From Ceratodon purpureus (lineage: Eukaryota > Streptophyta > Bryopsida > Pseudoditrichales > Ditrichaceae), in contig CM026421.1 of NCBI GenBank assembly GCA_014871385.1, positions 18,025,048-18,089,047 on the forward strand: a stretch of 64,000 bases of DNA, given 5' to 3'. This document shows, piece by piece, positions 25,756 to 63,637 of this stretch. The notes under the pieces were generated by a model, which saw nothing but the letters and a program-made list of their open reading frames with translations, was not told the origin of the DNA and did not search any database. The translations under genes were made by a program, and so were the position numbers. Within the stretch, counting starts at the first letter, position 1, and each line of letters opens with the position of its first letter.

Positions 25756-25906
25756 CGAGGGTGTTAGGGTCTGGAGTTCCTTTTTGCGAACTGGGAGTAG
25801 AGAGTGAAAGAGCGGTGAGGTGTTTTTGTCTTTTCCGATTCACCGGCAGTTGGATTGCCGAGTTTCTTGCTGTCGGATCGTAGAGGGAGAGAAGTAAGGC
25901 GTAGAA

Positions 25907-32850: not shown

Positions 32851-32924
32851 GATGTCCCTTACTATGAGCTAAATCTCTTTCCTAGTCAACAATGAGCTAA
32901 ATAATTGCTAACATTGAGCTAAGT

Positions 32925-33000
32925 TGATATTGCTAGCATTGAACTAAGTTAATATTGCTAGCATTGAACTAAGTTAATATTGCTAGCATTGAACTAATTG
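32925..33000. repeat. 25-bp tandem repeat
   Basis: Three copies of a 25-bp unit (gctagcattgaactaagtta and following) stand next to decayed gagctaaat half-sites of the outer palindrome family at 32866-32915. The unit may itself be a degraded derivative of that palindrome array. Confidence 0.75.
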
Positions 33001-33024
33001 AGTTGGTGTAATCATTATTGTGAA

Positions 33025-33056
33025 TTTGTTTTTTTTTTTTTTTTTTTTGAAGCAAA
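33025..33056 (-). mobile_element. tail-only retroposon scar
   Basis: ATTATTGTGAA occurs at 33014-33024 and 33057-33067. The 32 bases between are almost only T with a few bases at each end. This is what an aborted target-primed insertion leaves when little more than the poly-A tail is copied. Confidence 0.6.
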
Positions 33057-33412
33057 ATTATTGTGAAGTTTTCAAAAAATTTGAGAAAAGACTAAGTGGC
33101 GTTTGTTAGTGTCTCACTTTCCACCAACTTACACAAGTAATGAAAAATACGATCATGGATACAGTAGATCAAAATTCCATATTCATATTGAGCTCATTGT
33201 GAGCTAAAACGACTGAAGAGACAATTTCCACCATAGTAAATGAGGTAGACAAACCCAGTGAGAGTCAAGTTAAGTAAAAGGCAAACATTCCAACCATTAC
33301 TATGAAAAAAATAAATATATCGAAATGATACAGTACAGTATCAGTATTTTTATTGGAAATATTAATAATAAATGAGCAATGACATGGTATAATTGAGTTC
33401 GGTACTAGAAAT

Positions 33413-34208
33413 CTAAACTATAGATTTCTTCCCTTCCTTTGCTTTCAGGTCCTCCAAGGCCTTCATTATGTCGCCTCTCCGCGAAACGGTCGTAGGGTAT
33501 GATTCAGCGAAAACTGAAGTCTTTGTTTGTAGCCGAAGAATAGGATGAGCTAAGGAATCTCTCATTTGTCGCTTAAGTGTTGCTAGATCTGGACCTGTAG
33601 AAGAACAAGAACGGGTAGGCTGGAATCTAGATAATCTCGGGGGTTTGGGAGCAACAGTTGGCACAGTTGGTATTCCCAAGCATGAAACATCACGTTCTCC
33701 TATATTTGGCTCACGGTTAGGCATGGTTCTAGAAATATTTCTACCTACCGATCTAGTCTCCAGAATTTGCTCACTGTGAACAAAAGGCTTATTGGCAATT
33801 TCTACCCTAAGAGGTAATATTTCAGGTGCAACAACCTCGTACAGTTGTCTTTGAGGGATCATAGACTTCTGAGGTGCGGGAGAAGTAGAACGTTCCCGCC
33901 TAGGTGTAAACCTCCCAACCGATTTCAAAGGGGAAGGTGACGACACTGTGATTCGACCACCTAAACTGCTAGGAGGACTGTTTACTACGTCTTGCTCCAC
34001 ATCTCCCCTTGAAAAATCTATAGCTGCAGAAGCAGCGTCTGTGGCAGAAAACAACAAGAAGGGCTTCGAATATTGTTGAACTCCGAGAGCCTCCCCTTCA
34101 GATATAGAGCATGTACCAACGAACTGCCCACTTGAAACATTCGACGTTAGGCCGAAAGAATCACCGAACCTGCAATCAGACCCAACAGAAATAGAGTGCA
34201 GTGGCTGA
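33413..34208 (-). CDS. disordered Ser/Pro-rich protein (3' exon)
   Basis: The frame opens after an acceptor (ttcag before GTTCAGCC) and runs about 265 codons to a stop at 33413. It is low in hydrophobic residues, rich in Ser, Pro and Arg, and ends in a short charged helix (MKALEDLKAKEGKK). No known domain. The upstream exon was not found. It lies just downstream of, and in the same direction as, the FCP1/NIF-like gene, and could be an alternative 3' exon of that gene or a separate cargo gene. Confidence 0.45.
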
Positions 34209-34354
34209 ACCTGAAGAACAATTACACATCGGTAAGACAGGCAAATTAGTATTACGACAAATTGCAAACCTTACAAAATCTGATTTCAACCGGTAGAGAA
34301 AAACAATAACATTTACATAAACATTTACAAAAACATTTACAAGTTTGTCCATAG

Positions 34355-37300
34355 TTTAGCTCATTGTGAGCCACCGTCTTCTCAATCATTGTTCAATTTT
34401 GCCGAGGATTGCTAACCCCGCAAACATCATAAACAGTACCCACATTCCTTGTAGAAACGGCCATTCCCTCTAAAATATGGTTGAATAGTGGATCATCGTC
34501 GGACATTGGGGGGACTCCTATTCTGTTTGACTCAACATAATTTCGAAGATTTCCATTAGCAACCACCTTGACCAAATTGGACAACCATGGAGCCAAAACT
34601 GACATTAGGTAGTCATCTTTGTCATCCTTTTCGATCCAGGACTTTAGGAAAACAGCATTGCCAGTCTCATTACAGATGCTTTTCTCCGGACTATCATCAA
34701 TTAGAATCGTGTTGTTCACGTTGTAGATACTACCCGCTCCAAAAAGGGTTGAAGAGAACGTTTTCAAAAATATAGGCTTATCTATGTCAGGGTATTTCAA
34801 GTAGGTACGGCGAGAAGTTTGAATTCGTTCGCAATCTTCCTGACTAAGAACAACCGAAGGCATGGGCAGCCCAGTGAAAAGATATTTGACAACATCCATC
34901 GCTGTCAAATTCTTCATTGAACTCCAGACCAAAATATTTGCGAAATCGTTCACAAATGCTATGAAATCCGAGAATCGGGGCCGAACATACACTGCCTTCG
35001 GTCCAACAATAGTGGCGAACTTCGGACTATGAACAGAAAGGTTTATGTGGTTTGTCACTGAGTCCTTCAACCCAAGACGCCTCTCGACGCATTTACATAG
35101 TATACCATTAATGTCCAAAACAATGTTCAGCCACTTCTTGGATGTTACACCCTTAAGACCTCGTGGAAACTGTGTAGAAGCTTCAGCCTGGAAAATCAAT
35201 AAAACAAAACAAATGGCGTTACCTGTTGAAATGCAGATGGACGAAAAGGCGAGGAGAATTTGAACTTTTGATTTTGACAATTGGAACGCAATTCCACGTC
35301 GCTAACCACAGATTTAACAGCAACCGGGCGGTGAACATGGTCAGTTGCTTTCAGCTGACCATCCATTGAAGCACACCAATTTAAACAAGTCAAATTCAGC
35401 AGATATTCAAATTCTTCTACTAATCAATGAAATTAACATCTTCACTTTGCTCACTGTGAGCTAAATAAAATGCCACGATAGATTAACTTAAAATAATGAA
35501 TATTAAAATTTTATAAAATGTGTATAGTCACACTTACATATATGTAAATACAGTCACTTATCATTCGGCTAAGACCTCTACTTTAGAATAGGACAGTGGG
35601 GAAGTAATACTCAGAGCTTTAAGTTGATATATATCTCAGAGGTGCATACCTCGGGACAATCATCACTTTGCTGACTCTCCAGGTGAATCCTCTGAGCGTC
35701 TGGGAGAGAGAGACTTGCCCCTGGAGACTCCTCGTAGTCCACCAACTCTTCATCAACCGGATCGACAAGTGCTTCGGGTTCCACCAAACAGTCTGAGGGC
35801 CCTGAAGTCTCTTTTGGTGTAGGGTTGGCCGACAGGTTACCTGCTCCCTCCAGGTCCACCGTGGGGCTCGTTGCAGGTGTGACTGGGATAACGGAGAATT
35901 CATCACCGCCACTACCAATGTCATCATTGTCATTTTTCGGGCCTGACGACATTGGAGTCATCGGTTTGCAAGGGCTCGTAATGACTGCGTCCGGAATCTC
36001 CTCTTCGACCACAACGGCATTCTCCACCGTAGTATCCGCAGTGGCCAAAGCATCACAACCTGGATAATTAGAAATACAAGCGTCAGCTACTTCTTTACGA
36101 TTTTGCTCAGTGTGAGCTAAATCATTTAATACAGGCCTAGATGATCACCAAATGCAATTCATAGTGTGTTCAGTCCTTGAGCACGTTGATAATTCTTTAC
36201 TGTTACAATCTGTCATGAAGTTCAAATAAGTTGATCCAGATTTCTAACATTCTAAATGACATTAAAAACTAATGTGCCTAGTTCTAATATTTCGTCGATT
36301 TGTACGAATGTGAGAACTTAGAAGATCCCACACACTGCTTCGAAATGGGACAAAATTTGAGCTACTGCCTCCTACCTATTGCAACAGGATCGTACATCAA
36401 AGTAATGTAATTAGAGGCGTAATATTTTGTGCCTTTGATGGTGAAACCAGTACTGTCAACTGGAATAAATGGAAATCTCCAAAAATATGAAAAACGTAAA
36501 CAACTACGTATCTGGACGCATTCAGAAACGACAATCATACCGAATCTATAACAAATACAGTGAGACACTTAGAGAACCATACATCCAGGTTTTTCATACT
36601 CGATCATGCCATACTATCCATGTTTTCTAGATTAAATTTGTGACTATTTAGTCTTTACCTTTAGGACTTTCAACTGCATCACTACAGGGCATCACAGTGG
36701 GCTTCACGATGGCGGTCTCCTGCATTGGAGCAATGATTTGACCTCGCGTCTGCAACAACATCAGACGCATTTCCTGCATCTCTTTATCCCTCTCCCGCAT
36801 CTCTCTGTCCCTCTCCCGATCCTTCTCCTCCTGAATCTTGAGGAGACTCTCTGCCCTCTCCTTGGCCAAACGAGCCTCTTCAACAATAAGCCGAGTTGCC
36901 TCGGCTTCCCTTTCCCTCTTCTCCTCCTTCTTCTTTCTCTTCTCCTGGTTATACTCGAACCAGTCCACGTCCCTCTTCGAAACCGGTGCTGCCGGATGAG
37001 GTGCCTTCCCCGCAGCATTGAAGACTTCCTCCCCGTCATCTGGTACCAACTCCTGGCGGACAACTACAGGATGGACCACTGCTGTAGAGACGACAGCAGG
37101 ATGTACCACCGGTGCCCTCGCTACAACCCTGGCCTCTGAATTACTTGGGTCTTCATCGCTGCCATCATCATCGGAGTCGCTGAGCAAAACCAACGGAGTC
37201 TCCGTTACTGTCTTCACACTGCTCTCCCCGCCTCTATTGCCCTCTACAACATCGTCGGGAACTCCTTCATCTGCTCCCCCCTCCACGTTCTCCTCCTCTT

Positions 37301-38076
37301 CCATGTCAACATCTTTCGAAGTTGACCCACCGACTCTGATTTGAGCCTGCTGCTCTGACCCAAACTCCTGAACGAGGCGCCGACCTAGTATAGAGTTCTG
37401 TTGGCGAAACCTAGTCTCACGTGGTGAAGAATGACGGCTTAGTGGTGAGGAATTTAGCTCACTGTGAGCTAAACTTGATGACCGAGTATCTGGCTGAGGT
37501 GTGGTGGGCAAAGTCTCGATTCCAAGAGTCTCTTCGTCAAATCCTGCCCCAAGAGTCTCTTCGTCAAATCCTGCCCCAAGAGTCCCTTCAATCGGTTCCT
37601 CCTCCAGAGTATCGTCTTCTTCCTCTTCGACTATCTCATCTGCCTCATCATCCGAACCCGATTCTACAGTGACGTTCCTTTCAAATTCATCATTCTCAAG
37701 AAACTGCTGCCTCTCTGGCATTGGCTCGTCCTCCTTCGGTAAGTCATAGATTGAATCCTCATGAATGAAGTCATTCATATCGAGGTGGGGCACTAGCTTA
37801 GCCATATCCTTGTAGCAGTTTTCGAAGTTGTGATCAATAATCCCGTAATAAAACATACCGTAGATCCGGACAGAACTAACATACTTCATTAGACTGAAAA
37901 TATAATGAAACATAAAGCTCACAATGAGCTAAAATTCATGCTGACTCTACAATGACAAATGTATATGGGATATACAGATTCACTAACTATACAAAACCGA
38001 ATATCATTCAAACTAGAGAGTAACCCAAATTTATGCTTGCTGTCTCAGACCTGAATTTAGCTCACTATGAGCTAAT
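34355..38076. repeat. scattered 21-bp palindromes, left arm
   Basis: Copies and near-copies of TTTAGCTCAC, then A or T, then its reverse complement, occur near 34358, 35447, 36102, 37453 (perfect), 37914 and 38056; more decayed ones lie near 33189. Most fall in introns or between genes; the one at 37453-37473 lies in a coding exon. Confidence 0.85.
34393..35366 (-). CDS. FCP1/NIF-like phosphatase domain protein
   Basis: Exon 35223-35366 joins 34393-35187 in phase across a tiny 35-bp intron with good borders, giving 312 residues. The second exon carries an FCP1/SCP (NLI-interacting factor) haloacid-dehalogenase domain: VLDINGIL in place of DxDxT/V, WSSMKN as motif II and DDSPEKS as motif III. 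The family removes phosphate from proteins such as the RNA polymerase II tail. Here the second aspartate of motif I, the general acid, is asparagine, a change seen in several plant relatives, so activity is doubtful. It is a cargo gene of the outer element and may influence transcription of the element itself. Confidence 0.65.
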
Positions 38077-38209
38077 ACAGTCACTACTAACTAAGTCAAA
38101 ATTTAGACATAAGAACAATAAAGTAGATACTACTTACCCGAGCAGCTAACATGCATTTTGTTCCACTGAACACCCCCCAGAAGTTCTCGCCAGGTAAGCA
38201 AAATGTCTT
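35611..38209 (-). pseudogene. ParB-methyltransferase-like gene, 3' part (split by MULE)
   Basis: Exons in transcript order are 38138-38209 (rest of the split exon), 36659-37883, 36376-36459 and 35650-36059, the last possibly reading on to a stop at 35611. All junctions are in phase. The first piece contains CLPGENFWGVFSGTK and MLAAR, a methyltransferase motif I region of the FxGxGT type in which the glycines are partly replaced. A long acidic, disordered region follows. It contains duplicated TLGAGFDEE blocks, a likely SUMO-interacting motif (PLVLLSDSDDDGSDED) and a charged coiled coil (about residues 1230-1310 of the full protein). With the 5' part the protein would have about 1500 residues. 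The 18.6-kb insertion between the parts should prevent a normal transcript. Confidence 0.7.
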
Positions 38210-38218
38210 CAACAGTTC
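38210..38218. repeat. 9-bp target duplication, left copy
   Basis: CAACAGTTC directly precedes the left end GGGGAAAG and is identical to 56848-56856. Confidence 0.88.
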
Positions 38219-38336
38219 GGGGAAAGTTAGCATGCGTGCGGCGAGCGGCGAGCGGAGAGCAGCGAGCGCAGATTTGAGAGCAGAAATTTGAAATTTGAAC
38301 ACCCATTTAATTAAATAAAACACCCTATGACCGTGG
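38219..38336. repeat. left terminal inverted repeat of MULE
   Basis: It begins GGGGAAAGTTAGC and runs into a GC-rich block made of repeated GCGAGCGGC words (38233-38270), ending with CCCTATGACCGTGG at 38323-38336. The GC block matches the right end at about 95 percent; the outermost 15 bases are looser. Confidence 0.85.
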
Positions 38337-38985
38337 GAAATTTTTATAAATGGGGTTATATTTTTAGAATATTTTTAGTAAGAGTGTGTAACTCCGTGGA
38401 ATTCTGAACCTCATGATAATCTTTTTCTAGGTTTAGGGTGATATAGTAGAATTAGGGCTGACGTCATGATGATGTCATGATGACGTCATGCGGAATGTTC
38501 AGTCTTCTAAAGCTTTTAACAGGCCTAAATCTTCTTCTATTACATATACCATTCCGATTAAATATAGGAAATCCATTATTCTGATATTGTCTCTGATACG
38601 ATAGAAACGGTAAACAAAGAGGCAGTTGATTCTTCAAGGAAAAAAAAGATAAGACATAAATTTGAATAATAGTCGTGCTTCATCTGCATTTGAATAAGAG
38701 TGCAGAGATGATTGTAATTCACTCGTGAATGTAAAGAAGCGCTTTGAAATGTTCTTAGGATTACTTAAAAACTGTGTAGAATAATTGTATTGCTAAGTCA
38801 AAAATTTATCCACCCCAAAGTTTCTTGTCATTACTGATAATTCAATCGACTACAGATAAGATCTATTCAACCTTTTTATTACACTCGCAATTCCATATAA
38901 ACCATACAAGTTTAGGATCTGCTTGTTTATAGTCATCAACTGAAACAGTCTGGATTCTTTCAATCCACAGGGAAGGCTTGAGAGG

Positions 38986-39498
38986 ATGAGCAATTCCTTT
39001 GAAGTTGTTGCTTGTGAAACAATTCTTCAGAATCTGCTTCGGCGGATGGCAGATGGACCAGACCTTTGGGAATCAGTCTGTGTTGGTACAACTCAAGGTT
39101 GGAGTCCTCCAGTAGTGATCACGTTCGAGGATGTGCAGAGTGCTCGTGGAGTGTCGAAGCTATGGAGACGTGAGATCGACAACAGCCCTGAGTACGCTTG
39201 CCTCCGACTTGCAAGATGGGATTATGATACAAACTCGGAGGGGCACTGGACGCCGAAGAGAGACTATGAAGCGTTTCGCTTCAACGTGAACTGGAATATT
39301 TTTAAGAGCTCCTGGATATTAGCACATCCGATTGGCAATGACAGATTAGAGAAAGCGTCATTTGCTGAACTTAGTTGCATTGAGTTAGATCAATTAAGGT
39401 CATTCATCATTGACAATAGAAACAGAGCAATGTGGGTGGAACCGGGAGAGAAAGTCGTTCCTCGTGATGGTATTTGGGTGTCTCCTAATCATAGATGA
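38986..39498 (+). CDS. small F-box-like protein
   Basis: A single exon of 170 residues. The start gives FEVVACETILQNLLRRMADG and further on RGVSKLWRREI, the helical pattern of an F-box-like region that would bind SKP1. The remainder is Trp-rich with no repeat I recognise. The match is by pattern only. It is the first cargo gene inside the left end of the MULE. A relative may be the next gene, which shares a closing GIW phrase (DGIWVSP here, EGIWLDR there). An adaptor for ubiquitin-mediated removal of silencing factors would suit a transposon, but that is speculation. Confidence 0.5.
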   Translation: MSNSFEVVACETILQNLLRRMADGPDLWESVCVGTTQGWSPPVVITFEDVQSARGVSKLWRREIDNSPEYACLRLARWDYDTNSEGHWTPKRDYEAFRFNVNWNIFKSSWILAHPIGNDRLEKASFAELSCIELDQLRSFIIDNRNRAMWVEPGEKVVPRDGIWVSPNHR

Positions 39499-39991
39499 GG
39501 ATTTTTTGCTTAAGAATTCATAAATGCAATACAGTTGTATATGAGTAGTGATCTTTGAATATATTGAGCCTTTGAATTATATGTGCATTCGGGCTATTTA
39601 CATGATTGCAATTCTTATCTATCGATATCTTTAAATGAATATATCATACTTCAAAACAAATACTAGGAAACCAGTAACAACTCAGTGTGGTCACAATTTA
39701 GTGTCTTCAAGATTTGAAAGTTCGCTTGGATTTTCATGTATCCATACTGGATAACTTTGAAATAAGTAACTGCTATGTAAAAACCTTTTTCGTTTGTCAA
39801 AAGGTTTAACAGGTACTGAAAAGTTATCATATGTGATTGAAGCAGACGCTCATTGTAGAACATCTTTTGTCAGAACAACTCATTTGAGAACATCTTTTGT
39901 CAAGATTTGAAGAAATAAACTTCGAGCTTTTCATTTTTGAATCTCATAAGCTATATTAGAAATCAATTAATCTTCACTTTTATTTTAAAGC

Positions 39992-41023
39992 ATGGAAAAT
40001 CATAGACTTCAACGCATTTCTGCACTAATATATATCTTAGTTCTGACAATTTTCCGACAAGTACAATCATTTGATGAGGAAATTATACAGAATGTATTGT
40101 CACCAGTTGAAATTACAAACAATATGCACAAAAAGGTATGGCTAGATTGCTTCGAAAAGCAATATGATCGTGGTGTGCCAATAAAGCAAAACGTCGTGTT
40201 TGATCAAATCAAAGCTCATGCATCTATCGAGGTTGGCCGCGGTCTTCTCGATTTTGAAGATAATTTGTTTTGTGATTTTGAATACGAAATCCGCGAATGG
40301 AATTGTGCCATAAAATATGTGATAGATTACATGTGCATCTGGGAGCATCCACATACTCGTCTTATGCGGCACGAAGATGCAAATTTCAACGATGACAATT
40401 GTCCAATCTGTGAACAAGGTCCCAGCCCTGATACATATTTGTGTCGATGGAATATTGAACGAGATGGTCTGTATGTTTCTCAGTTCCATCCTTTTAGCGG
40501 TAGACATCAGTACAAGCTTTTTAAGCGATGGAAGGAGGACGAGGACCACCACGAATTTCTGTCAGAGTATAGAGTGTCTATTTTCAATGATCTCGATGAT
40601 GAATTATTGCTTACATTTGGAGTTATGGATGCCCCAATGAATACTGTGAAAATTCCAGGACGACTTCGAGCACACATTTCCGAACGATTTTTTTACATAT
40701 CCGTAAATCCACGCACCGACGAGCGTTTACTCAGTTCGCCTTGGATATGCAAATTTAAAGACCTGGGGAGTATGGCATATCGTAGAGATGTGAAAATATG
40801 GAAACCTCCTCTAGTGAACAGCGTTTCAATGCCTATTGACTGTATAGATTGCGCATGGAAAGCAGATAATGAAGGGATATGGCTGGACAGAGTTGGATGC
40901 GGACAAACGGCATCAATTTGGGAAAAACGATTTGACTGGGTTCCAATACGAAAGCGGACAAGAGAACCTGACGATGATGATCAATCGGCAAAACGTCCAA
41001 AACTGGAGCACTTGGAACTTTAA
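39992..41023 (+). CDS. unknown cargo protein with nuclear signal
   Basis: A 343-residue single exon. The first 25 residues are hydrophobic (ISALIYILVLTIF) and could be a signal anchor if this ATG is used; a later start at NMHKKVW would give a soluble protein. The body is Trp- and Cys-containing with the phrase CPICEQGP near residue 137, and the tail is a likely nuclear signal (IRKRTREPDDDDQSAKRPK). No known domain. The nuclear-looking tail favours the later start. An unexpected copy of AAACGTCCAAAACT is repeated downstream near 41100, so the 3' end may have been duplicated. Confidence 0.5.
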   Translation: MENHRLQRISALIYILVLTIFRQVQSFDEEIIQNVLSPVEITNNMHKKVWLDCFEKQYDRGVPIKQNVVFDQIKAHASIEVGRGLLDFEDNLFCDFEYEIREWNCAIKYVIDYMCIWEHPHTRLMRHEDANFNDDNCPICEQGPSPDTYLCRWNIERDGLYVSQFHPFSGRHQYKLFKRWKEDEDHHEFLSEYRVSIFNDLDDELLLTFGVMDAPMNTVKIPGRLRAHISERFFYISVNPRTDERLLSSPWICKFKDLGSMAYRRDVKIWKPPLVNSVSMPIDCIDCAWKADNEGIWLDRVGCGQTASIWEKRFDWVPIRKRTREPDDDDQSAKRPKLEHLEL

Positions 41024-41562
41024 AAATTTTCTGAAAAAGGGGCATTTCAACTCTAGTTATTAATTGGATAGTTATTAAACGGATAGATATAATCCAGCAA
41101 AGCGTCCAAAACTTTAGCGCCTGGAAATTTAAATTTTTTACGAGGAACTTCACATTTATTAATTGCACCTATAAAAATACGCAATCAATATTTGTCATTT
41201 TAATTTCTCTTATTTAATAATTGTATTCAAGACACTATTAGTACATGTATTTAAACGAAATATCTAGATCAAATGATGAGGAGTAATACTGTCCCAGTTG
41301 AGGTTTTGCGTTTTAGTGGTTATGATTAATCATGACGCTGGCGTTTTAAGGGGCGTCTATGATATGTCATTTATGAAGGAGCTCAGAACATGTGAACTCA
41401 ACATTATCATTTAACGGATCTGTTCATAGCCATTGTGCACAAGGCCTTGAAGCTCTATTCTTCCTATTTGGTGTATTGTGTGCTGCTCTTTAGTTATTTT
41501 GAGTTTTGAAGTTCTTGTATTCTTGTAAGTGGTTTAGGTTTCTACTGTGTAAGAGAGTAGAT

Positions 41563-43020: not shown

Positions 43021-43517
43021 TCTGGTAACTGTCACGTTATATATGGAGGTTATAGAAGTCACTGCGCAGGGGATCAAGGGTTCTACGTTTTCAGTGCAAC
43101 TAGTATGTAATCAAAGGTTAAAGTATCGTCTTTGGGTCAGAAATGGCTAATTTTTGTTTTAGTTGATTTACGGATACTCTTCGAAGTAAATGTCTCATAG
43201 CATGCACAGTTTTTGTAGTAAAACATACGCAGTATGGATAGTCGAGGAGACGTTAGACATGGTATGTTATCTCTATTTTTTTTTAAAAGATCTGGACATG
43301 TGTTTGGTTGAGTGGTATGTGAAAGCGATTCTAAACAGTTGGTGTGGTGTCCTCCTTGAATAACCAAAGTGAAGAAAATAGAGGTTCTAGTTAGTGATGC
43401 CTGTTTGCATGCAATACCAAATCCGCATCCGGGGATGTATGGGGAAAGGTAGCATTGATGGTAAGATATGAGTTAAAGAGTAATAGAAAATGCAAGATAA
43501 GAACCACTGAAGTCAGA

Positions 43518-51062: not shown

Positions 51063-54000
51063 ATGGCTAATCTCCCAGCAGACAGAGTGTTAGGCATGGC
51101 CGTGCTCAAAGCACATGGTGTTGGTATTCCACTTACAGTACGTGTAGACGAGGATGGCTTGGCCCTTGTGACGGCACAACGCCTTAGCCTCAGATTTCAC
51201 TTCAGAGAGGAGACTATCTGTTTAGAGGAAGAGATTTATGATGATGAGACAAATGAGATTACGCATACGGTAGATCAGGTCTCTGAGAAAGATGATGATG
51301 ATAACAGGTTCTGGAACCTTTATCCTGGTAGATACAGAGTATATGGTCTTACAGAGTCCCAGATGCAGGCGTCTACTGAGATTCTAACTCCTCGTAGATC
51401 ATCCACTGTTCAGACTCCTCTGCCTCGTGATGTGAAGGTTAAAATAGAGCCTGGCTTGGACACTCCAGATGTAACACCAGTGATCTCCCTCTCCTCAGAT
51501 GAAGAGACTAGTCCGCTGAAAGCATCACCTTCTTTGCCTAGAGAGACTGTGGTATCTAGCACGCCAGCTACACTACCACACAAATGTGCCAGTACCTCCC
51601 AGACATCAAAGGAGGAGACTGTCAATGTAGTGCCACTGATTAGGATACTTGCAGAGAGACCCGGGAGGAAAAATGTTCTGAAGAGAATAGATTTCTCCAC
51701 AGTTCGTCAGGAGAAGGTTGAGTACTTACCTGCAGTCTTCAACAACAATGTGATCTTCGAGCTCCCTCCTGTTGGTGACGGGGCTTCCAAGACGCAAGCG
51801 AAGGCAATGAAGGGGATGGACAAGCGCTACGACGGCCACATTTGGACGAAGACAATCACTACCAACATCACTAACGAGTTCGGCCTGTCATTCCGCTATT
51901 CCAGCTGCGTTGGTTGGCTGCGCTGCGTCAACAAAGAATGTGAATTTCTCAACCGTCGACCTCGGATCGTCGAGGTAAACGAGACTGAGTTTGAGGGTAG
52001 TACCCTCCAAGCTTTTACAGTGAATCAGCCACCCCCAGCGGATGCAACACTTGTCTGCAAGGTATGTAAAGAACCTCATGCATGCATCGCTACATGCGGA
52101 GCCAAGATTTATTACGTTCTAGGTAAATCCAATCAGACAAGGGCATGTATCCATCAAGGAACACATAATCATCCAGTGAAGGTTGAGGACTATAGAGACA
52201 CTAAGGAGGAGATCAATAGCTTGATTGAAGAACAGGTGGAGAATACTCCCCGGGCTACGAAGAGCGCCGTTGTCCTGGAGGCCAGCAAGATCCTGATTGG
52301 GAACTACCTTCTACAGCCTGAGGATGCACCACCGAAGAAGCTGAGCATGGAGGAGCTCATTCCTGTACTTGACCGGTGCAAGGACATGGCTTCCCCCAAT
52401 ATCCGCAACAAGGTGATGACGTTCAAGCGAATTGGAAAGTACGGAGTGATGGACGCCATCACCAAACTCCGTTGGATCAGTTTGTGGGCCTTCGTCCAGG
52501 AGAACAAGTTCCCGGGCCAAGGAGCTGACAGAGAGAAGGTCTTCGTCTTCAAGATGTCAGAAGTTGGGCCAGGTAGTGGTGTTGACTTGGTCAGAAGAAT
52601 GCAACCAGGTGGGGATCTTGACAATGCTTGGATTATGTTCGACCACGTTAAGCGGGTACGGGATTGGTCCACGATGGCTTGCCATGTATATGACGCCACC
52701 TACTGCCGCGTCATGACGATTGCAAGTTGCGACATGCAATCCGAGGACACTGAGGCCCAGCTGGTTTTCTGGAAGAACCTGAACAGCGTTATGGAGAGGA
52801 ATGGCGTTGCAGCGCCAAACTTCAAGGGTTTCATGGCAGACAACGCACAAGCAAACTGGAATGCGGTTCGGATCCTCTATGGGAATGGCAACAAAGAAGA
52901 CAAAATGGAGGATCGGGAAAGGTCATGCTTGTTCCACTGGACCCAAAACATGGTCCAGTACACTGACAAGTACTTCCCCGAAGAGCTCCGGGAACAGCAC
53001 AAGAAGATGTGCAACCAGTATAGGACAGCAACGACTTTGACAGAGGCGGACACTCTTTATCACGCGTTGCAGGCATGGTGGATATCTACTGGGGTCCTGG
53101 GAGAGAAGGCACTAACCAATCTGGGGACTTGGCTCGCATTCTGGCACCACCGCTACCGTCAATGGGGTGGATTCATGTCTACGGTATGATGCTACTAAAC
53201 CCTGCTGCTGTACTTGATTTCTGTTTCGGTAAACTTAATCGACACCACTTCTATAATTGATCCTAATTATTAAAATTTCTCAAATTGCAGAAATTTACTG
53301 AAGAAGAACTCACAGAGATGCCGACCTGTAACCTCGCCGAAACAGTTCACAATAAGTGGCTACAAGCATCAGGTAACAACGGCAGCGACCTCTATGTTGC
53401 GACTGTCGATGATTACGTTCGGGGCTTTCTGCAGGTAGTAAACTACTACCAGTTTCTGAAAGGAGATGTAGGCGGAACTGGACCTTCGAAGAAGGAACTC
53501 AAGCTTCGCATGGCGGAACGCTTGGCAAAGAAAACAGGAAATCCTAAAGTCCTAAAAGATCCCATGCTGGCTATGCCTGGTGCAGATGAGTTCTGCACCC
53601 GTCAGCCTGTCCTGGCCGGAGCAGAGGTGTTTGGATCACAAAAGCGTAAGGCGGACGTTCCCATCGGAGCTGACGAGGAGTCACACCGACCAGACAAAGT
53701 TAACTTCTCACGTCCGAGAGGTGTTGGACGCAACGTTCGAGCTCGCACTGTCCAGCTGCCCATCATCGTCGAGAACGCTTCTGAAGAAGAAGAGGCCCAA
53801 GAATCACCCGCCCAAGAAGCTTACTCCCCCCCAGCGTCTCCTGTGAACGAGGTAGGCGTTCGCCATGTCAACGCTGTTGAAGAAACCAAGGTTGATGTGA
53901 AGGAGTGGCACATTGCAAGACTTCACAAAGCTTCTGCAAAGTGCTGCTGGGCCCAAAGAGCTGGTACAAAAAAGAAGTGCACTGAGAGAATTGTCAGGGG

Positions 54001-54775
54001 CCCAAACTTCACTGCTGCACCGACCTACACCGGAGTTTGGACAAACTATCGCAGGAATACGGTTGAGAGGACAGAGTTTTTCTTCTGCTCCGATGATATT
54101 GAGCGCTGCGTGAAAGGCTCAAGGCGCAAGTGGGTTGCACACTACTCCAAGGACCTCGAAGTGCCGCCGATTCCAGAGGTGTGGCCCGTAAAACTAGGTA
54201 CTAACCTTAAGCTCACAGAGATCCTCGCCCTTGAAGCTGCAGGATTCCAACTCCCGCCGAAGAAGCCAGTCTCCCCAAGACGTCTCTTCTCGTCTGCTCC
54301 GCCTCCTGCAAACCTCGCTTCGTTGCCGATTCCAGCAGAGGCTGACCGCTACCCCGGTAAGCGAGATGGGAAGATGGTAAAACGCACAGCAACTCGACCG
54401 AACCCGGCGCAGCGACTCTCCATGGGCTCCTCTCAGTCCCTCAAGGCTCGCCTCCGTTCCATCACCATGATACCTCATCCAGGCCATGGTTGCATCATCG
54501 GGCTGGATTCGGGCGTTGCTCCAAACATCACACAGTACAACATCACCATCACCTCTTACCCGAGTTGCACTTGTCCAGCTTTCAGGAAGACGATGACTAA
54601 GTTTCGAGGTAAGATACAGTTTTCATACTGTAAACATATTTATTACATCCTTTTAAAGGTCTGCAACCGTAATCCGGAGGCCGAGCTTTTCATCCATGCG
54701 CCTACCTTTAGTTTCAACGAATTCAAGCTAGTCCTAGAGAGCGGAATCTTGACACACCCCTTGGCCAAAATCTAG
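51063..54775 (+). CDS. MULE transposase with SWIM zinc finger
   Basis: Exons 51063-53183 and 53291-54775 join in phase (ACG/gtatga, ttgcag/AAA), giving 1201 residues. An N-terminal region with a SUMO-interacting-type motif (VISLSSDEE, about 140) is followed by a Cys/His-rich WRKY/GCM-FLYWCH-like zinc segment ending ACIHQGTHNH (about 350-375). The MULE core comes next: HVYDATYCRVM (first Asp about 543), FMADNAQANW (second Asp about 594), CLFHWTQNM, and PTCNLAETVHNKW at the start of exon 2, with the likely acidic third residue. The SWIM finger (C-T-C...Y-C-K-H) is at about 1130-1165. It would cut the terminal repeats of the surrounding element. No stops or shifts are seen. Confidence 0.88.
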
Positions 54776-55033
54776 GAGGCACTATACTATTATGGTCTCA
54801 AGTATGCATAGTGGACAGTGGTTCATGCGGATACTTAGCTTGAGGTGATTGAATTTTTCCTTGTACTGAGTCAGCAATACAAATCTCGTATTGTCTATTT
54901 CAATATAAAGGTTTTGTCATTCACATTTATTACATTGTGTTACAATAGCATTCAATCAACAAGTGGCATTTGTTATTTATATCAACGCACAATTGGACTG
55001 TACTCATTCCATGAATACATTTAAATATAGATT

Positions 55034-55486
55034 TTATTCCTTGAACTTAATGCGTTTAGGCATCCCCTTCGCATTTTCAGCACAATCATGAACAACCTCC
55101 TGCACTACAGGACAAGCTACATCGACATTCATTGATTGTTCCCCAATTTGCAGTTGTCGTAGGCGGGGACGTTTCAACAGTGGAATAGCTTCACTCTTTC
55201 CACGTAATGCCTCCCTAGAATAAGTCCCCGGTGGAATCTTCCCGACCTTGGAGTATGCATGAGGTGCCAAAGGAACAACCGGTTGCTCTAGGGGAACTTC
55301 GAGAACACCTGGCTTTTCTACAACCACTATGTCCCCTAGCACGTCTACTTTTACTTCCACGCCGTCATTTCCAGAATGCCCTAAATTACATCCATTCAAC
55401 TCATCTTCCCCCTCGACCTCCACATACGGATGAAATGGGCCAACGACATCACCAAGTGAGATAGTGGTTTCCCCGGCAACTTCCAT
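55034..55486 (-). CDS. small acidic protein, unknown
   Basis: A single frame of 150 residues, acidic in the first half (VEVEGEDELNG) and basic near RLLKRPRLRQLQ-type residues, ending IKFKE. Its end faces the 3' end of the transposase gene. No recognised domain; coding status rests on length and residue composition only. Confidence 0.4.
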   Translation of the reverse strand: MEVAGETTISLGDVVGPFHPYVEVEGEDELNGCNLGHSGNDGVEVKVDVLGDIVVVEKPGVLEVPLEQPVVPLAPHAYSKVGKIPPGTYSREALRGKSEAIPLLKRPRLRQLQIGEQSMNVDVACPVVQEVVHDCAENAKGMPKRIKFKE

Positions 55487-55699
55487 TTCACAACACGCTC
55501 TTCTTGGAACTTAATTCAAGAAGAGCACGATCAAAGAGGGTGAGACCTTCTACTGCCACTACTTAAATATCGAGAAGGTAGATGCTCGGCGCCCTTAAAT
55601 AGTGGGATATATAAGAATGATTAAATATTATACCACTCCATGGCATGAATAGGTTTGTTATGACTGATTTAATTAATTTCTGGACAGGATACCCTAACC

Positions 55700-56040
55700 A
55701 TCAATTGAGAGTGAACTAGAAGCTCTTTCAAATGATAAATATTAAAAAATGAAAAGATTCTAAAATAAGAAGACGAATTATAAAAAATAAGGATATTAAA
55801 AAGATAAAATATAAAATATAGAAGATAAAAGATTATAAAAATAAATAAATTAATCGATTAAAATAAATAGGAAATAAAAACACATAAAAGGAAAATTATA
55901 CATATATAAAGAGTGCAAAAATAGGACAAAATTATAAAAAAAGTAAAAAGGATAAATGATTAAATGAAACTTAAAAAAAAGGAATTAATGATTAAAAATT
56001 TGAAAAAACAAAAAAGATAAAAGATAATTATATATGTATG

Positions 56041-56094
<54 letters not shown>

Positions 56095-56560
56095 TTTAAT
56101 TCGATGAAGAAAAAGAGAACAGTGTAAAATAAAATAAAATAATGAATATACAAAAAAGAACAATAAAAATATAAAAGGTTAAGAATTAAAAATAAATAAA
56201 AAACGTATAAAAATAAAAAGAATAAATGATAAAAAAGAGTTAAATCAGAAAAGGTTAAAAAAATTAAAATAAATAAAAAACGTATAAAAATAAAAAGAAT
56301 AAATGATAAAAAGAGGTTAAATCAGAAAAGGTAAAAAAAATTAAAATAAATAAATAAAAGATAATAAATGCAACTTAAAGATGTGCCTTTATTACCAACC
56401 GTATATAGTATTTCAAAATAAAAATTCGAAGGGAATAATTTAAATGGAAAAAAAAATAAAAAAATATATACATTAGAAGAAAAACAATAAGACATGAAGA
56501 GAACAGTAGAAATGTAGTAATGTGAAGAAAAATGACCTAGGATTCGAAACTCAGTTAGTC
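55700..56560. repeat. A-rich low-complexity tract with (AT)n and 77-bp duplication
   Basis: Purine-rich, A-dominated DNA inside the right end of the MULE. It contains a pure AT dinucleotide run (about 56046-56088) and two tandem copies of a roughly 77-bp unit between 56180 and 56350. No gene is visible. Confidence 0.75.
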
Positions 56561-56629
56561 AATCATTACAACATTAAATGTCGGGGCAGAGGACCTAGAT
56601 TGAAAATTAATAAAAATAGTGAATTCAGT

Positions 56630-56847
56630 CCACGGTCATAGGGTCATATTTATTACCAAAAATAGTAATATTTTTTTAATTTTCTAAAAATATTCTGAGA
56701 ATATTCGAATCTACTAATAATAGTTTTTATTATTAGTAATAATATTACTGTTTTTAGATTTAGTCCTTCATTTTCTGCTCGTAGCTCACCAAATCTCCGC
56801 TCGCCGCTCTCCGCTCGCCGCTCGCCGCACGCATACAAGCTACCCCC
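56630..56847. repeat. right terminal inverted repeat of MULE
   Basis: On the minus strand it begins GGGGGTAGCTTGTATGCGTG and enters the same GCGAGCGGC-rich block as the left end; the complement of CCCTATGACCGTGG lies at 56630-56643. About 100 bases longer than the left repeat because of an inserted AT-rich segment with its own inverted symmetry (tattattagta). Confidence 0.83.
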
Positions 56848-56856
56848 CAACAGTTC
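56848..56856. repeat. 9-bp target duplication, right copy
   Basis: CAACAGTTC follows the right end of the MULE and is identical to the left copy. On the minus strand it encodes the ELL codons of the interrupted gene. Confidence 0.88.
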
Positions 56857-58376
56857 GATGTAGAATTCCATCCGCAGCTCCCGAGCATTCAGTCGTAGGT
56901 GAGCTTCCTTGTACAATCCGTACACTGTGTAATAGTTTGTATTAGGAGCTTTATAGACTGACTTCACCTTCTTTCTGTCGTCGCTCCTACCTGCACGCAC
57001 CAGAAATACTAGGTACAACTCATCCTTCCCTGAGTTTCGAGTAGTATGATCATTAAGGCGTTCGTTCTTCGCAGGGATGTATCTAGATGGAATCACCTCG
57101 TATTGTTTCATGTACTTCTCTCCGTATGCTATTGCTTGGGCATTTCTATGCTGTGAAGCACTAATCCAAACCCAGACTTCTGGATCGGAGACAGCTGGAG
57201 ATTTCAGAAGAAGCAGCTTCTTCATAAACGGCTTAAAGAATGGGTTCTCGACAGTGTCATCCTTGGTGGAATGGCCCGGGGTATCTCTCAAATCCAGTAA
57301 TGCCAAACCAAGTCTCGGTTCACTATCATAGCGCCACTGCTGCCCGAACTCCATTTTAACAGCATTGAATAACCGCGTACGAATCCTTCCTTTCAGGGCA
57401 ACGAAATTACCTTTCACCTCCAGGAACTTCTTGAAGAACGGAAAAACATTGGGCCATTTATCTGTCAAATCACGTGACCTCTTAAACATCCCCTTCTTCT
57501 CAGCACGAAAACCATAAAATCCCTTATCTGGTCGGTCTAGAAGGACATTCAATGTCGCGCTAGAGATACCGTGTTCATCCTTCCACTCGTGCCACTTCTC
57601 TCGGTTGATGGTCATGTCCTTGTTGCAAAGGCCAAGAGATGGCATAATGTCATGGAGTTCTTGGATGCATATCCGCTTCCGCTTCTTCTTGGCCATCCAG
57701 TCGCCAGATGAGTAGTGATGTGGCAACACCGTGCCACGAGTTTTGTGTACGGATACCTTGGGGTATTTATACTGCCAATTCTTTGTCAGCATCAGTAAGT
57801 GGGTTACCAATGACCTCGTCTCCTCCTCGGTCATGAAGCCCATACCACGGAAGAAGCTGCGTTGGAGCTGAAACGACTTTCCGCCTTTGAAGCCCTTCTT
57901 CTGGTTGAACCTCTCGCAAGTCTCCGGATCTATCAACTCTCCTGTGCTGTGCTTCGTGATGAACTCCTTCCACAGATTAAAATGATCGTCGGGAGCGGTG
58001 ATGATAACCATCTCGTTCTTAATATCAGCCGGCCCCTGCACTTGCTTTCCGTCCTTGCTGGGGTCGATGTTCTGGAATCGCTTTATAAGCAACTCGACGA
58101 ATTTCTACAAAATGCATACTTTTAGATTAGAGATATCATGTTTCATTTATTTATGTATAGAAATAAAATGCACTTGTCCAACTATTTCGCTATACAATCC
58201 ATCACTACATGGAACTGTATCACTATAGGAACCCCTGAACATAACAGATTACAACCATAGTCACCCAGAAACTATTCAATCTGTTGAATCAGACAGTTCT
58301 ACAATTACAGAAATCCGTTAACCATACAGCAAACCATAGAAGTAAGAGTTCATTAATTCATAAGAGAAATAACAAA

Positions 58377-58397
58377 TTTAGCTCACTGTGAGCTAAA
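58377..58397. repeat. single perfect 21-bp palindrome
   Basis: A perfect copy of the outer palindrome in the intron of the split gene, between exons ending at 58520 and starting at 58104. Confidence 0.85.
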
Positions 58398-60129
58398 CGC
58401 GACCTTTGTATTCATTGTAAACTCAAGCAGTTGATTTAACACACAGTGAACCAATTTGAAAATAATCACTCCACACAATCATCTTGAAGAAATCTCGTGT
58501 TAGTTTCATGTTCACTTACCTGATATTTCTTGGTGTTGTATAGAGCCCCATTATGGCGGTTGTTGTCCTTCATATTAGTAGGTTTATCTTGGCTTATCCA
58601 GACATTCCGCGCACTAAGTATGTTAGTACCCCATGTCGGTTGCGCGTGATTAAGATGGTTGCACATATTATAGAACTCCGAGATTCTGACCAGAATCATA
58701 GCTTCTTTGCTCCACACAATGTATGCGTCCCAGTACTCGAGCTCTTTCTTCCTCTTCTCCCCGCAACCTGAAATCTGTAACTCCTGCGAAGCTACTATAC
58801 TATGTTGACCATTGATAATCATAAATTTCCCATCTTTAATCTCCCCCCAAGACTTCGGCTTCTCTGGCAGGAGTTCTAGTTTGTCTGTCACTGGCATCAG
58901 ACAGACCTTTTGTCTCTGGTTAATATCTCCCATCCTTACAAGCTCTTCTTTAACCGATTTAACGATCTCTCTCTCTAGGTCTCGGACGATATACTCATCC
59001 TTGGCAATGTGGCACTGTTTCACATTAACTGGGAACGTGGTCTTCATGTCGAAGACATATGCGGATTCACAATCATCCCAGAATGTCTTCTGTATCTCTG
59101 TGAATTTCTGATAATCCGGCACGTCCTTGTCCTTAGCCTTAGCCTTCGTCTTCTTTGTTTCTTCTGTCTGCGTGAGAACAGATCCAGAGCTCCCTGCCTT
59201 CCCTGTCTGCTTCCGTTTCTTCCTTGAGGTGGAGGCTTCTTGAATATCAGTGGCCGGGCGCTTGCTTCCACGTGAACGCGAAGGTGCTGGAATTGGTGAT
59301 GCGCGTGGGTGTTGAATGCTCCCTCTTGATGGAGCAGCGGAGTCCTCGCGCACAACAACTAATGCTGAGCTCTGTAACGGAACTGTGCTGATCTTGGAGG
59401 CGGATTTGTCAGTTATATAGTGAGTAAGTGTCAAGAAAACTCGATTCAGCCTATGCCCAAAGGATACGGCACTCAAGTGTGTTCCATCTTTATTTTTCCA
59501 GGCGGTCTTCTCTAGGTCGAGTATAAGGTCTTCGCATGATGTTCCAATCATGCTTTTAATTAGCGGATCCCCGTCAAATTGAGCATGTTCAGCACCGACT
59601 TCGATTACTAACGAGTGGACGTGTGACAAGTCACACTCGGAATCTCGGTCTACAGCACCGACCACGAGTACAATGTACTTCCCATGATGTTCCTCGATAA
59701 CCTTCAGACGCTCATGTACAGACAGGTCCAGATACCTAGGACTGTTCTTTTCTTTATGCAAGATTCTCACAAACTTGTGGTACCGGGACACGGCCAGAGA
59801 CCAACCCTCGACTTCGGACTTGAACTGCCACAGGGATCCGTAGGAATTCTCCAACGACGGCTCAATGAAAGGAGTCGCTGGATCGGGGTTCTTGAACCTC
59901 TCTAGGAACGGATCGAGGTGACTCATGTCGTATCCATCTGGCATTAGCACTGGGGTATCCATCGTCATCTGAAATCATTCACACAAAACTTCATTAGTTT
60001 AACAAGTTTCTCGATTATGTATCTCTTGTATCAATCCACATCAATCATCAACATGGAGAATCAGACAATATGACCAGTATGAATGAAATTAGCTTACTGC
60101 AATGGAAATATTGAAGGTTGACTGCAAGA

Positions 60130-60924
60130 TTTAGCTCACTGTGAGCTAAATTCGTACAAATAAGTATGCATCACTACTCTCGAAGTTCTCTAGCTTTTAG
60201 TAGATCTCAAATCAAATTGAGCGACTGTTAGTACATAACTTCTTGAGTCAGGCAAAAGTCATCAAAGTTTATCGTACAAGTGCATTGGATTTAGCTCACA
60301 GTGAGCTAAAGAGGTCATAAGGGCATATAAATTAGTTTGTTGAGACCAAACATATCGTTTAGGTTCATATGTTAGCGTACATTGATCTTTGTACGGAAAG
60401 TAACACTACGTTTTAGCTCACAGTGAGCTAAATCCACTAAGTTACACTACGATTTAGCTCACTGTGAGCGAAATCTTCAAAGTTGCACTAGTATTTAGCT
60501 CACAGTGAGCTAAATCCACTACGTTGCACTACGATTTAGCTCACTGTGAGCTAAATCTGTTAAGTTGCACTGGAATTTAGCTCACAGTGAGCTAAATCCA
60601 CTAAGTTGCACTATTATTTAGCTCACTGTGAGCTAAATCTTCAAAGTTGCACTTGAATTTAGCTCACAGTGAGCTAAATCCACTAAGTTGCACTACGATT
60701 TAGCTCACTATGAGCTAAATCTCCTAAGTTGCACTGGAATTTAGCTCACAGTGAGCTAAATCCACTAAGTTGCACTACGATTTAGCTCACTATGAGCTAA
60801 ATCTTCTAAGTTGCACTGGAATTTAGCTCACAGTGAGCTAAATCCACTAAGTTACACTACGATTTAGCTCACTGTGAGCTAAATCTTCTAAGTTTCACTA
60901 CAATTTTGCTCACACTGAGCTAAT
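60130..60924. promoter_or_regulatory. array of 15 palindromes, 13 in 41-bp register
   Basis: Copies start at 60130, 60290, and then at 60412, 60453, 60494, 60535, 60576, 60617, 60658, 60699, 60740, 60781, 60822, 60863 and 60904, exactly 41 bp apart. The central base alternates between A and T from copy to copy, so the true repeat is an 82-bp pair. Linkers also alternate (ccactaagttgcac and cttctaagttgcac types). Substitutions are few. It lies upstream of the first coding exon of the outer ParB-methyltransferase gene, probably in its promoter or an upstream intron. Confidence 0.95.
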
Positions 60925-60929
60925 TCTTA

Positions 60930-62130
60930 TATCTATGTAAAGAATGTAGGTCCATGGGACCCACAACTAATACAGAATATTGTAAAACAATGCAGAACTT
61001 GTGAAAACGTTACTCTATGAAAACAAATTCTGCAATCCGTATGTAGTAAACATATGCTGTAGTAGTGGGACAGAATTGTATAGAAGAAAAAAACAAGTTG
61101 TCTACTTTTTTAAAACACACGGATAAATCCCTTCAGTTTGATTGTTAGGTATAGAGAGAACAAAAATATGTGAAGTCCAAATTTATAATGACATTACACT
61201 CAAATCGATTCGTAGAAACATAACAGAATTAAATCATTTACATTCACAACAGTCACTGTCCTCAGCAATAAAGTTACCCGAGGAGGAGAATTCATACAAA
61301 TAACAAATACATATTCATTTCAAAGTTCCTAGAAATTAGCGCATATACTTATGATCCACAAACGACAGAATACTCAACATTCTGAACATCCTAATTTAAG
61401 CATTAGATAAGGCTACCCTTTATCACTGTAGTAAGTTTATTCTATACATATACAAGTTCATATGAAGGTTAACGACAAAGTCTGCAGCAAGTAAAATGCT
61501 TACCGCTCTTCTCTAGCTCTGACGTCTACAGGTCCACGGTAACACACGCCTTGGATTCCTTGAAGATTGCAACCTGCATTACGTTGAGAAAGGAAATGCA
61601 ACGACTTCATCAGCCAACAACAGGGTTCAGTAAACATAGAAGGCACCGAAAATAATAATTATCTAGAACCAACAACGAAATGTTGTGATACCGAAACTAA
61701 AAAACAAGAAAAGAGATGACAGGATCAATGCAACAGCTTACAGGTCTGTAAAATGGGAATTTATCAAGGAGACAACGTCAAAAGAGAGGCTGGAAACCCT
61801 GCAGAGGACTGAAGTAACAAAGTGATATTCAGTTCCACGCAAGAAATATGCATCACGCATAATGCACAAAACCGACATTGTCACACAAACCAAAAGCTTG
61901 AAAAACAACTAACAATTGTCACACAAAAAAACAAGCGTAACAAACAGGTGCAACAAGTGTTTCAGCAAACCGAAGGTTACACAACAAACATACATCGAAG
62001 TGTAAATATACAAGCTACAACAAGAATTGTAACCAACGACGATGTTACTCTCACCTTACACCCAAACAACAAAGCACCCACAAAGACACACAGTCTCTAG
62101 GGAAGTACGAAAATTCAAGAACAGAATCGA
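60930..62130. other. upstream region of outer gene; possible small exon
   Basis: No palindromes and no firm gene. A block near 61505-61575 (minus) has acceptor- and donor-like borders and an open frame (GVCYRGPVDVRAREER), but its phase fits neither neighbour. Confidence 0.3.
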
Positions 62131-62136
62131 ACTCAC

Positions 62137-62197
62137 CAAAACAGGCCGTTTTGTCGACTGAAGCGGCGCGTCCACCTCGTCTCCAGAGATGTCTTGA
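62137..62197 (-). other. candidate first exon of outer gene
   Basis: The minus strand reads DISGDEVDAPLQSTKRPVL and then a strong donor (gtgagt). It is acidic like the first exon of the inner gene, but no in-frame ATG is certain. A weak palindrome half-pair lies just upstream at 62276-62300, and beyond it a GC-rich stretch that looks like a promoter. Confidence 0.35.
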
Positions 62198-62699
62198 ACT
62201 AACAAATAGAAAAACAACAAGGTGGACGTTGAAACTGCACACAAAACTCGATCAGAGTAGATGAAACCTAGGGTTCGAGGGCTAAATTCGCTGTGATCTA
62301 AATTTTAGAAAACGTAGAGAGCCGACGGCGCTTGCAACTATCACCAACAACTACCCTGTAACAAAACAAAACTGGAGTACTACAACTACAACAAAGTCTA
62401 GAAGAAACCACCTAATCGACAGTATGATCTAGAAACCCTAAATGCGAACCAGGTAGCGTATCGCGATTACAACCCAGGCACGCCATGTCTCCATATTGAA
62501 AGAGACGACGAAGGAAGCTCACGAGGGAAGAAGGACGCGGGAGTTCGGAAGATCATGTCGTGGGCTGTTCACGAAGTGATTTCGTGGGCAGCCCTGCAAA
62601 CGAATGGCGGCTGCGGGCAGGAACCCTAGCCATAGAGGGCATGCCACGTGCCATTGACGTAGTTCTTCTGAGCCCTCATTAATGACTCATCTCGGTTAT

Positions 62700-63602: not shown

Positions 63603-63637
<35 letters not shown>

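Follow-up and report, generated by a model that had tools for sequence, protein, structure and literature searches.

In this stretch of 64,000 nucleotides (nt) of the Ceratodon purpureus genome (contig CM026421.1, positions 18,025,048 to 18,089,047; hereafter the window), two DNA transposons, one inserted into the other, each carry a ParB-like gene together with copies of a palindrome of their own, 21 base pairs (bp) long in the outer element and 24 bp long in the inner one. Paralogues of the inner gene elsewhere in the genome are accompanied by palindromes that differ between clades in step with the gene; this suggests that the protein of each element recognises that element's own DNA. We propose that this protein acts as an activator or anti-silencing factor, similar to the VANC proteins in logic and not in domains, a reading to which we give a probability of about 50%.

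At up to 3 mismatches the window contains 22 matches to the 21-bp palindrome, which are limited to the outer arms (33188-38076 and 58377-60924), with 0 expected from 100 shuffles. The earlier note on this DNA had assigned the family to these arms only and was right: the 18,628-bp inner element holds no copy even at up to 4 mismatches, and the possibility that one palindrome serves both elements was rejected on these grounds. Single copies start at 33188, 33765, 34355, 35445, 36101, 37453, 37913 and 38056 (33188-38076, at up to 4 mismatches), another one found by motif search lies in the first intron of the outer ParB-like gene (58377-58397), and those upstream of this gene (60130-60924) form mostly a tandem array of 41/82 bp. 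The 24-bp palindrome has 14 matches, all between 46014 and 49082 within the inner element (0 expected), and 15 sites at up to 5 mismatches. In the inner ParB-like gene, six copies occupy the intron that separates exon C from exon D (46014-46585), and eight at up to 3 mismatches, or nine at up to 5, lie upstream of exon A (48140-49082). The claim that this family occurs only inside the inner element thus holds for 14 of 14 matches, but they are confined to the surroundings of one gene and not distributed over the whole element. In the genome searched (362 Mb, 151 contigs), the exact patterns occur 446 times (21 bp) and 155 times (24 bp), the reversed control giving 0 for each; places were recorded for the first matches of each search.

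The nesting of the two elements is real. The inner element (38220-56847) lies in exon 2 of the outer ParB-like gene, between two copies of a 10-bp target-site duplication (TSD), CAACAGTTCG, at 38210-38219 and 56848-56857, both located by sequence match. Two outer copies on C5 (C5a and C5b) are natural empty sites, matching the window at 98.3% and 98.8% identity over 32788-38219 and at 95.7% and 99.0% from 56848 onward. Because they lack the insert and run continuously through the insertion point, their BLAST pieces overlapping by exactly the 10 bp of the TSD, the inner element is an insertion into this exon. It has inverted arms of 66 nt (38211-38276 and 56790-56855), corresponding to terminal inverted repeats (TIRs) of about 57-66 nt with 86% identity. 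Transposons of the MULE superfamily make target duplications of 8-11 bp and carry long TIRs, and the inner element agrees on both points. Two transposase-like open reading frames (ORFs) were read on its forward strand (51063-53189 and 53285-54775). The long ORF of the element gave no match to a MULE transposase domain in Pfam up to E 1, and the second transposase-like ORF has a SWIM-like C-terminus with a weak Pfam match (E 0.11), one further match being at chance level. We infer the MULE label from the duplication length, the TIRs and the ORF reading.

The outer DNA transposon was delimited by comparing copies on C1 to C5. It begins at 32787 and extends beyond the window, ending at about position 72994 of the window's numbering, these ends being common to the copies on C2, C3, C4 and C5 (two), whose flanks differ. 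Its arms had been recognised correctly before, but its extent had been underestimated. The terminal repeat reads AACA[TC]CATATTCATTAA..GGGAC, and the five copies with both ends read have TSDs of 4 bp (CGTT, AATA, CATG, TAGT and ATAT); the sequence examined for the C4 copy stops short of the right end. The cargo consists of a transposase, an FCP1-type phosphatase gene and the ParB-like gene. The transposase ORF belongs to DUF7869 (E 7.5e-45; L021:4824-7721). Sola-type DNA transposons make 4-bp TSDs, the length seen in the five copies; a literature search found no paper linking DUF7869 to Sola.

The outer ParB-like gene lies on the reverse strand. Splice sites read from the sequence delimit exon 1 (58520-59968; 483 amino acids (aa), with the box FMIINGQHSIVAS), and splice sites together with the comparison of copies delimit exon 2 (56858-58104), which the inner element interrupts. 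A downstream exon (36651-37928), supported by the frames in three copies, encodes a long disordered-looking tail. Among the C2, C3 and C4 copies the ratio of non-synonymous to synonymous substitution rates is 0.05-0.07 for exon 1 and 0.02-0.06 for exon 2, one stop in exon 2 of C5a and one in the C4 stretch having been skipped, which shows that the outer protein is under purifying selection. Synonymous divergence between the two outer subfamilies is beyond the computable range. Genome-wide, the outer protein has at least 67 exon matches with 57-100% identity (51 of 903 candidates scored, the C3 copy not among them), and no clearly distinct outer clade appears among the matches listed. Of these, 51 of 67 are on C6, a contig of 110.5 Mb that makes up about 30% of the genome; should C6 be the sex chromosome, the outer element has accumulated there. 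Published sizes for C. purpureus are 360 Mb for the genome and more than 100 Mb for each of U and V (PMC8000587).

The six outer copies compared contain 53 (C1), 54 (C5a), 51 (C5b), 46 (C3), 40 (C4) and 47 (C2) sites at up to 4 mismatches, in a count where 10 kb (C3) and 2.5 kb (C2) were masked and the C4 stretch ended before the right end. Their flanking DNA holds none in 74.6 kb at the same threshold. Arrays stand near the right end and upstream of both the ParB-like gene and the transposase gene, single sites lie in introns, and the transposase gene has arrays both before and after it; beyond the window, more sites occur at 67.6-68.6 and 71.7-72.2 kb. Near the left end, 32904-32997 is a 25-bp tandem array of degenerate half-sites (ATTGCTAGCATTGAACTAAGTTAAT). 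The array periods differ between the subfamilies, being 41, 26 and 54 bp in C1/C5, and C2-C4 have periods of 25 and about 122-125 bp. Both subfamilies share the half-site consensus TTTAGCTCAC, its last base being the weakest (54-77%), so that the 21-mer has stayed unchanged across subfamilies despite rebuilt array periods and saturated synonymous sites. One palindrome (37453-37473) is part of the downstream coding exon, where it encodes LAHSELN; it has the same gene position in six of six copies, with bases nearly unchanged. The palindrome at 33765-33785 also falls inside an ORF.

The inner ParB-like gene is likewise on the reverse strand. Exon A (47493-48061), placed by the gene model and the alignment of paralogues, contains the putative ParB-type box MFMVWDGNHRLQAW, and exons B to H were modelled from splice sites at 47393-47195, 47107-46691, 45813-44893, 44808-44461, 44374-44095, 44016-43821 and 43737-43518. 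The predicted protein has 1049 aa, its C-terminal half being methyltransferase-like. In an alignment of 10 paralogues, taken from the 27 rows of the exon-A tree described below, WDGN[HY]RLQAW is present in 10 of 10 rows (H in 9, Y in 1), and I.LCRM..LPVVRP is also conserved; this run looks like a ParB-type box. A search of the protein database with the model returned nothing at E 0.001 among 7999 scored candidates. Against the N6_N4_Mtase profile (PF01555) it reached E 1.5e-4 with 22.3 bits, below the cut-off of 26.7; the profile matches four of four paralogue segments (best E 7.6e-6), the first member staying below the same cut-off with 25.8 bits. The PDB matches of the C-terminal profile are weak (E 0.024-0.16), and all seven are methyltransferases, RsrI being the best and DpnA and CcrM being included. 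Motif I for binding S-adenosylmethionine (SAM), of the VDLTAGTG type, is kept in all four segments aligned, and a segment reading IVALE or IVAME is conserved as well. Amino-methyltransferases have the catalytic motif [DNS]PP[YFW]; the corresponding region reads [DE][FY]PDG in seven of seven segments (window and L050-L055). Since motif I is kept but the catalytic motif is altered, the domain is probably SAM-binding and non-catalytic.

A comparison of the outer and inner protein profiles gave one short box of 17 columns (E 0.088), and homology of the two proteins was not retained, as nothing beyond this box matched. The earlier note had provided each palindrome with its own ParB-methyltransferase-like gene. 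The pairing stands in both elements, but the methyltransferase part of the outer protein came from motif reading, and PF01555 has no match in that protein.

The inner protein has at least 126 exon matches in the genome, counted as 38 places (44 of 5621 candidates scored). We sampled 28 of these places, the window and L023 to L049, with L043 to L049 covering exon A plus about 1.2 kb on its upstream side. Gapped palindromes outside the exons, searched for de novo, were present in 2-23 copies in 25 of the 28 places, the maximum in shuffled sequences (ten each) being 1. Among 25 control windows (2.5 kb each), 17 had a top palindrome count of 1, seven of 2 and one of 3; since controls reach 3, L027 (3 copies) and L047 (2 copies) do not stand out by this count. 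The same 25 places share the scaffold GCCG-N4-CGGC, in 4-17 copies each (shuffle mean at most 0.15), which is absent from 74,150 bases of control sequence and from the outer parts of the window. Exon A of the paralogues with this scaffold is 62-92% identical to the window copy. Arrays are placed around the gene: among the 18 places with an intron stretch, 15 have both an upstream and an intron array, and no scaffold site lies in the exon stretches. The two arrays have the same commonest spacer in 13 places; L037 shows a tie, and L034 a difference that depends on a single intron copy. A chance origin of the palindromes was rejected on the basis of the shuffles, the reversed controls and the control windows.

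Nine motif classes were named after the motifs seen, using the commonest arm and spacer of each clade. Class c1 (arm GGTACT, spacer TTAA) comprises the window, L031, L032, L040 and L041; c1b (nGTACT, TTAA) L035 and L045; c2 (GGTACT, GCAA) L023, L024, L025, L036 and L039; c3 (AGCAGT, TTAA) L026; c4 (GAT, GTAC 7 with GCAA 5) L028; c4b (AAT, GCAA) L027; c4c (GAT, GTAA 3/6) L047; c5 (AACT, mostly GCAC) L029, L033, L034, L043, L044, L046, L048 and L049; and c6 (GTAC, weak arm) L037. In the exon-A tree, from which L038 was left out for lack of exon A, c1, c1b and c5 each fall on one side of a branch (96/95, 100/98 and 100/98, respectively), and c2 needs two changes, as L042, with no array in its stretch, falls inside it. 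Over the whole tree the labels need 10 changes, the least possible being 9; shuffled labels need 17.3 on average, and none of 200 shuffles was as low.

The pairing also had predictive power for one clade. The genome contains 126 matches to the c2 18-mer GCCGGCAACGGCAGTACC and 0 to its reversed control. From the clusters of the c2 motif among the matches listed, which include others such as that at C3:1.127M, six with gaps of 1.5-1.9 kb and outside the protein list were chosen, and c2 exons were forecast for their gaps beforehand; five of the six were examined. Exon A was present in five of five gaps, in one of them over 94 residues only, with 92-100% identity to the best four c2 members, 72-73% to the window c1 copy and 61-67% to a c5 copy. 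As these are near-copies of known c2 genes, the result is a test of the link between motif and gene and not of independent evolution. The element-specific pairing claimed before is supported by the paralogue survey, with 25 of 28 places carrying one scaffold whose spacer and arms follow the gene tree and five of five predictions correct; the exception is c1 and c1b, which share a 20-bp core, TACTGCCGTTAACGGCAGTA.

Several observations weigh against own-palindrome recognition by an activator. This shared core, a partial case of the one palindrome common to distant paralogues that the earlier note had counted as contrary evidence, accompanies exons A that are 66-67% identical. Paralogues without an array, likewise named there, also occur in part, as L030, L038 and L042 of the 28 places have none within the examined stretch. 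In L030 (C6:103957700-103961000), which has several stops, a non-palindromic repeat around GCAGCCTCACAAGCAT replaces the palindrome; the spacing of its copies is mostly 111-118 bp, and eight of them lie at or upstream of exon A, against one on the intron side. In L038 the short repeat is another one (CACAGCCGACTG), and for L042 a c2 site lies just past the examined end, at C10:16286069. L026, L027 and L028 have arrays upstream only. Conversely, 24-bp sites without a gene among the protein matches listed occur at C1:7.09M, C2:0.83M, C2:9.60M, C2:11.92M, C3:3.45M and others; unscored genes, remnants or non-autonomous elements are candidates for these places. Many of the sampled places are near-copies, so that the clustering of labels is partly descent. 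At up to 3 mismatches c2 places contain 4-16 matches to the c1 consensus and 3-12 to that of c5, and c1 and c1b places contain 4-16 to the c2 consensus; for this reason c1 and c2, like c5 and c2, are separate classes on the spacer; with the core exact, no GCAA spacer is found in c1 places and no TTAA spacer in c2 places. Spacers are reused: c3 combines TTAA with other arms, and c2 and c4b have GCAA in common. For the protein, exon A of the inner gene gave no significant match to a ParB domain in Pfam, NCBIfam or PDB, and single-exon fold predictions were of low confidence (mean pLDDT 34.0 and 32.7). Finally, no inner 24-bp site lies near the transposase-like ORFs or the ends of the element, which fits autoregulation equally well.

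Under the mechanism that we propose, each element would encode a DNA-binding protein, ParB-like in its N-terminal part and, in the inner family, fused to an altered amino-methyltransferase fold. This protein would recognise the palindromes across the non-coding DNA of its own element, namely in promoter regions, in introns and on the flanks of the outer transposase gene. Bound to the arrays, it would keep the genes of the element expressible, most likely by opposing host silencing as do Arabidopsis VANC and maize TnpA. When the motif changes in a lineage, arrays and protein would change together, so that each family acts on its own copies. We infer that the protein binds, that its methyltransferase part has lost catalysis, that it opposes silencing and that specificity is of benefit. 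A stronger form, which we hold with somewhat less than even confidence, is a combinatorial code for self-recognition, in which a fixed GCCG-N4-CGGC core, variable spacers and arms and diversifying proteins would let each family protect or activate only its own copies even when nested, an unrelated second pair of protein and palindrome having converged on the same arrangement in another type of transposon. The distinction of self from non-self between transposons, raised by the earlier note, may be read from the motifs in this sense.

The activator or anti-silencing reading is favoured because the array layout matches that of the VANC21 sites in VANDAL21. Its main rival for the inner family is autoregulation, in which the protein would bind the palindromes at its own gene, in promoter and intron, just to control how much of it is made, and would leave the rest of the element unaffected. 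The 15 inner 24-bp sites counted at up to 5 mismatches are all where this explanation would have them, but the outer 21-bp sites span the whole element, with arrays on either side of the transposase gene, and overall we find it rather unlikely. The protein might instead be an accessory of the transpososome or of replication, binding the repeats so as to assemble ends or pair copies, like other binders of sub-terminal repeats. The arrays at the right end of the outer element (71.7-72.2 kb) and the half-site array at its left end speak for such a role; the inner element has no arrays near its ends, motifs located within introns and one coding exon are difficult to explain in this way, and we consider the role doubtful. 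It is improbable that the methyltransferase half is active by way of a catalytic motif of unusual form and, like a modification enzyme, marks the palindromes in the DNA of its own element: the conservation of motif I and of the IVALE/IVAME segment in all four segments would agree with activity, but the window and all six paralogues have the altered motif. We give least credit to the absence of any functional link, where gene and non-coding repeats would be co-inherited in each lineage and tandem repeats would spread by slippage. Tandem arrays are common, and relatives inherit both gene and repeats, but co-inheritance accounts poorly for one scaffold across genes with 62-92% exon-A identity to the window copy, most of them sharing one variant between two separate arrays, or for an outer 21-mer that remained constant while array periods were rebuilt and synonymous sites became saturated.

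Other features were noted in the window. The phosphatase gene of the outer element, of the NLI-interacting-factor-like (FCP1) type, lies at 34396-35301 on the reverse strand (PF03031, E 1.8e-13), and its region is among the longest conserved blocks of the element, with 75.6-76.9% DNA identity in the C2, C3 and C4 copies. An AT-rich tandem array with a 176-bp period occupies 63086-63927 of the same element. The inner element has three more cargo ORFs on the forward strand (38944-43017), the last one with a RING-like cysteine pattern near its end by motif reading. Outside both elements, 25898-28119 contains overlapping ORFs of 327 and 489 aa with a G+C content of about 58% and no Pfam match of weight, possibly another mobile element.

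If our reading is correct, the inner family would offer a natural series of related proteins with differing palindromes, in nine spacer/arm classes of which two share a core and all within one genome, so that the evolution of DNA-binding specificity could be tested directly. It would possibly represent a second, non-homologous origin of sequence-specific anti-silencing in plants, and a reprogrammable family of palindrome-binding proteins would serve as a tool.

A literature search on ParB-like proteins with transposons, methyltransferases or palindromes found no such system among the papers listed, judged by title and the opening of the abstract. Fungal DNA transposons encode TET/JBP dioxygenases (PMC12730594). 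These elements are similar in carrying a gene acting on DNA methylation, as would be the case here, and differ in that methylcytosine is reportedly removed enzymatically. Bacterial ParB binds palindromes (ParB-parS), and fusion proteins of ParB and methyltransferase exist in phages and plasmids. The inner protein resembles these fusions in its putative ParB-type box, its amino-methyltransferase-like domain and its palindromes, to which binding is predicted; in contrast, the genes described here belong to plant transposons, contain introns, have no significant match to a ParB model and show an altered catalytic motif. TnpA of maize Spm/En has a 12-bp sub-terminal motif. It is a transposon-encoded activator of its element, correlated with demethylation (PMC10398659), as is proposed for our proteins; the scans made showed no domain relation, and the outer transposase is of the DUF7869 and not of the CACTA type. 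The closest parallel in layout is VANDAL21 (PMC5735166): the gene for VANC21 has arrays of the motif bound by this protein in its introns and upstream of it, and the arrays differ between related families. VANC proteins contain DUF1985/DUF287 domains and bind motifs of 8-9 bp (PMC5735166, PMC10398659). Both systems have a non-transposase protein encoded by the element and arrays of a short motif in introns and upstream of the element's own genes; in both, motif and protein diverge between related elements, here with the c1/c1b exception, and tandem arrays change fast. Pfam scans of the outer exons, of the inner model and of the 10 exon-A paralogues gave no DUF1985 or DUF287 match. The present system differs in its putative ParB-type box, its methyltransferase-like half in the inner protein and its palindromes of 20-24 bp with a core fixed throughout the inner family, and in that two types of element each possess such a pair of protein and palindrome.

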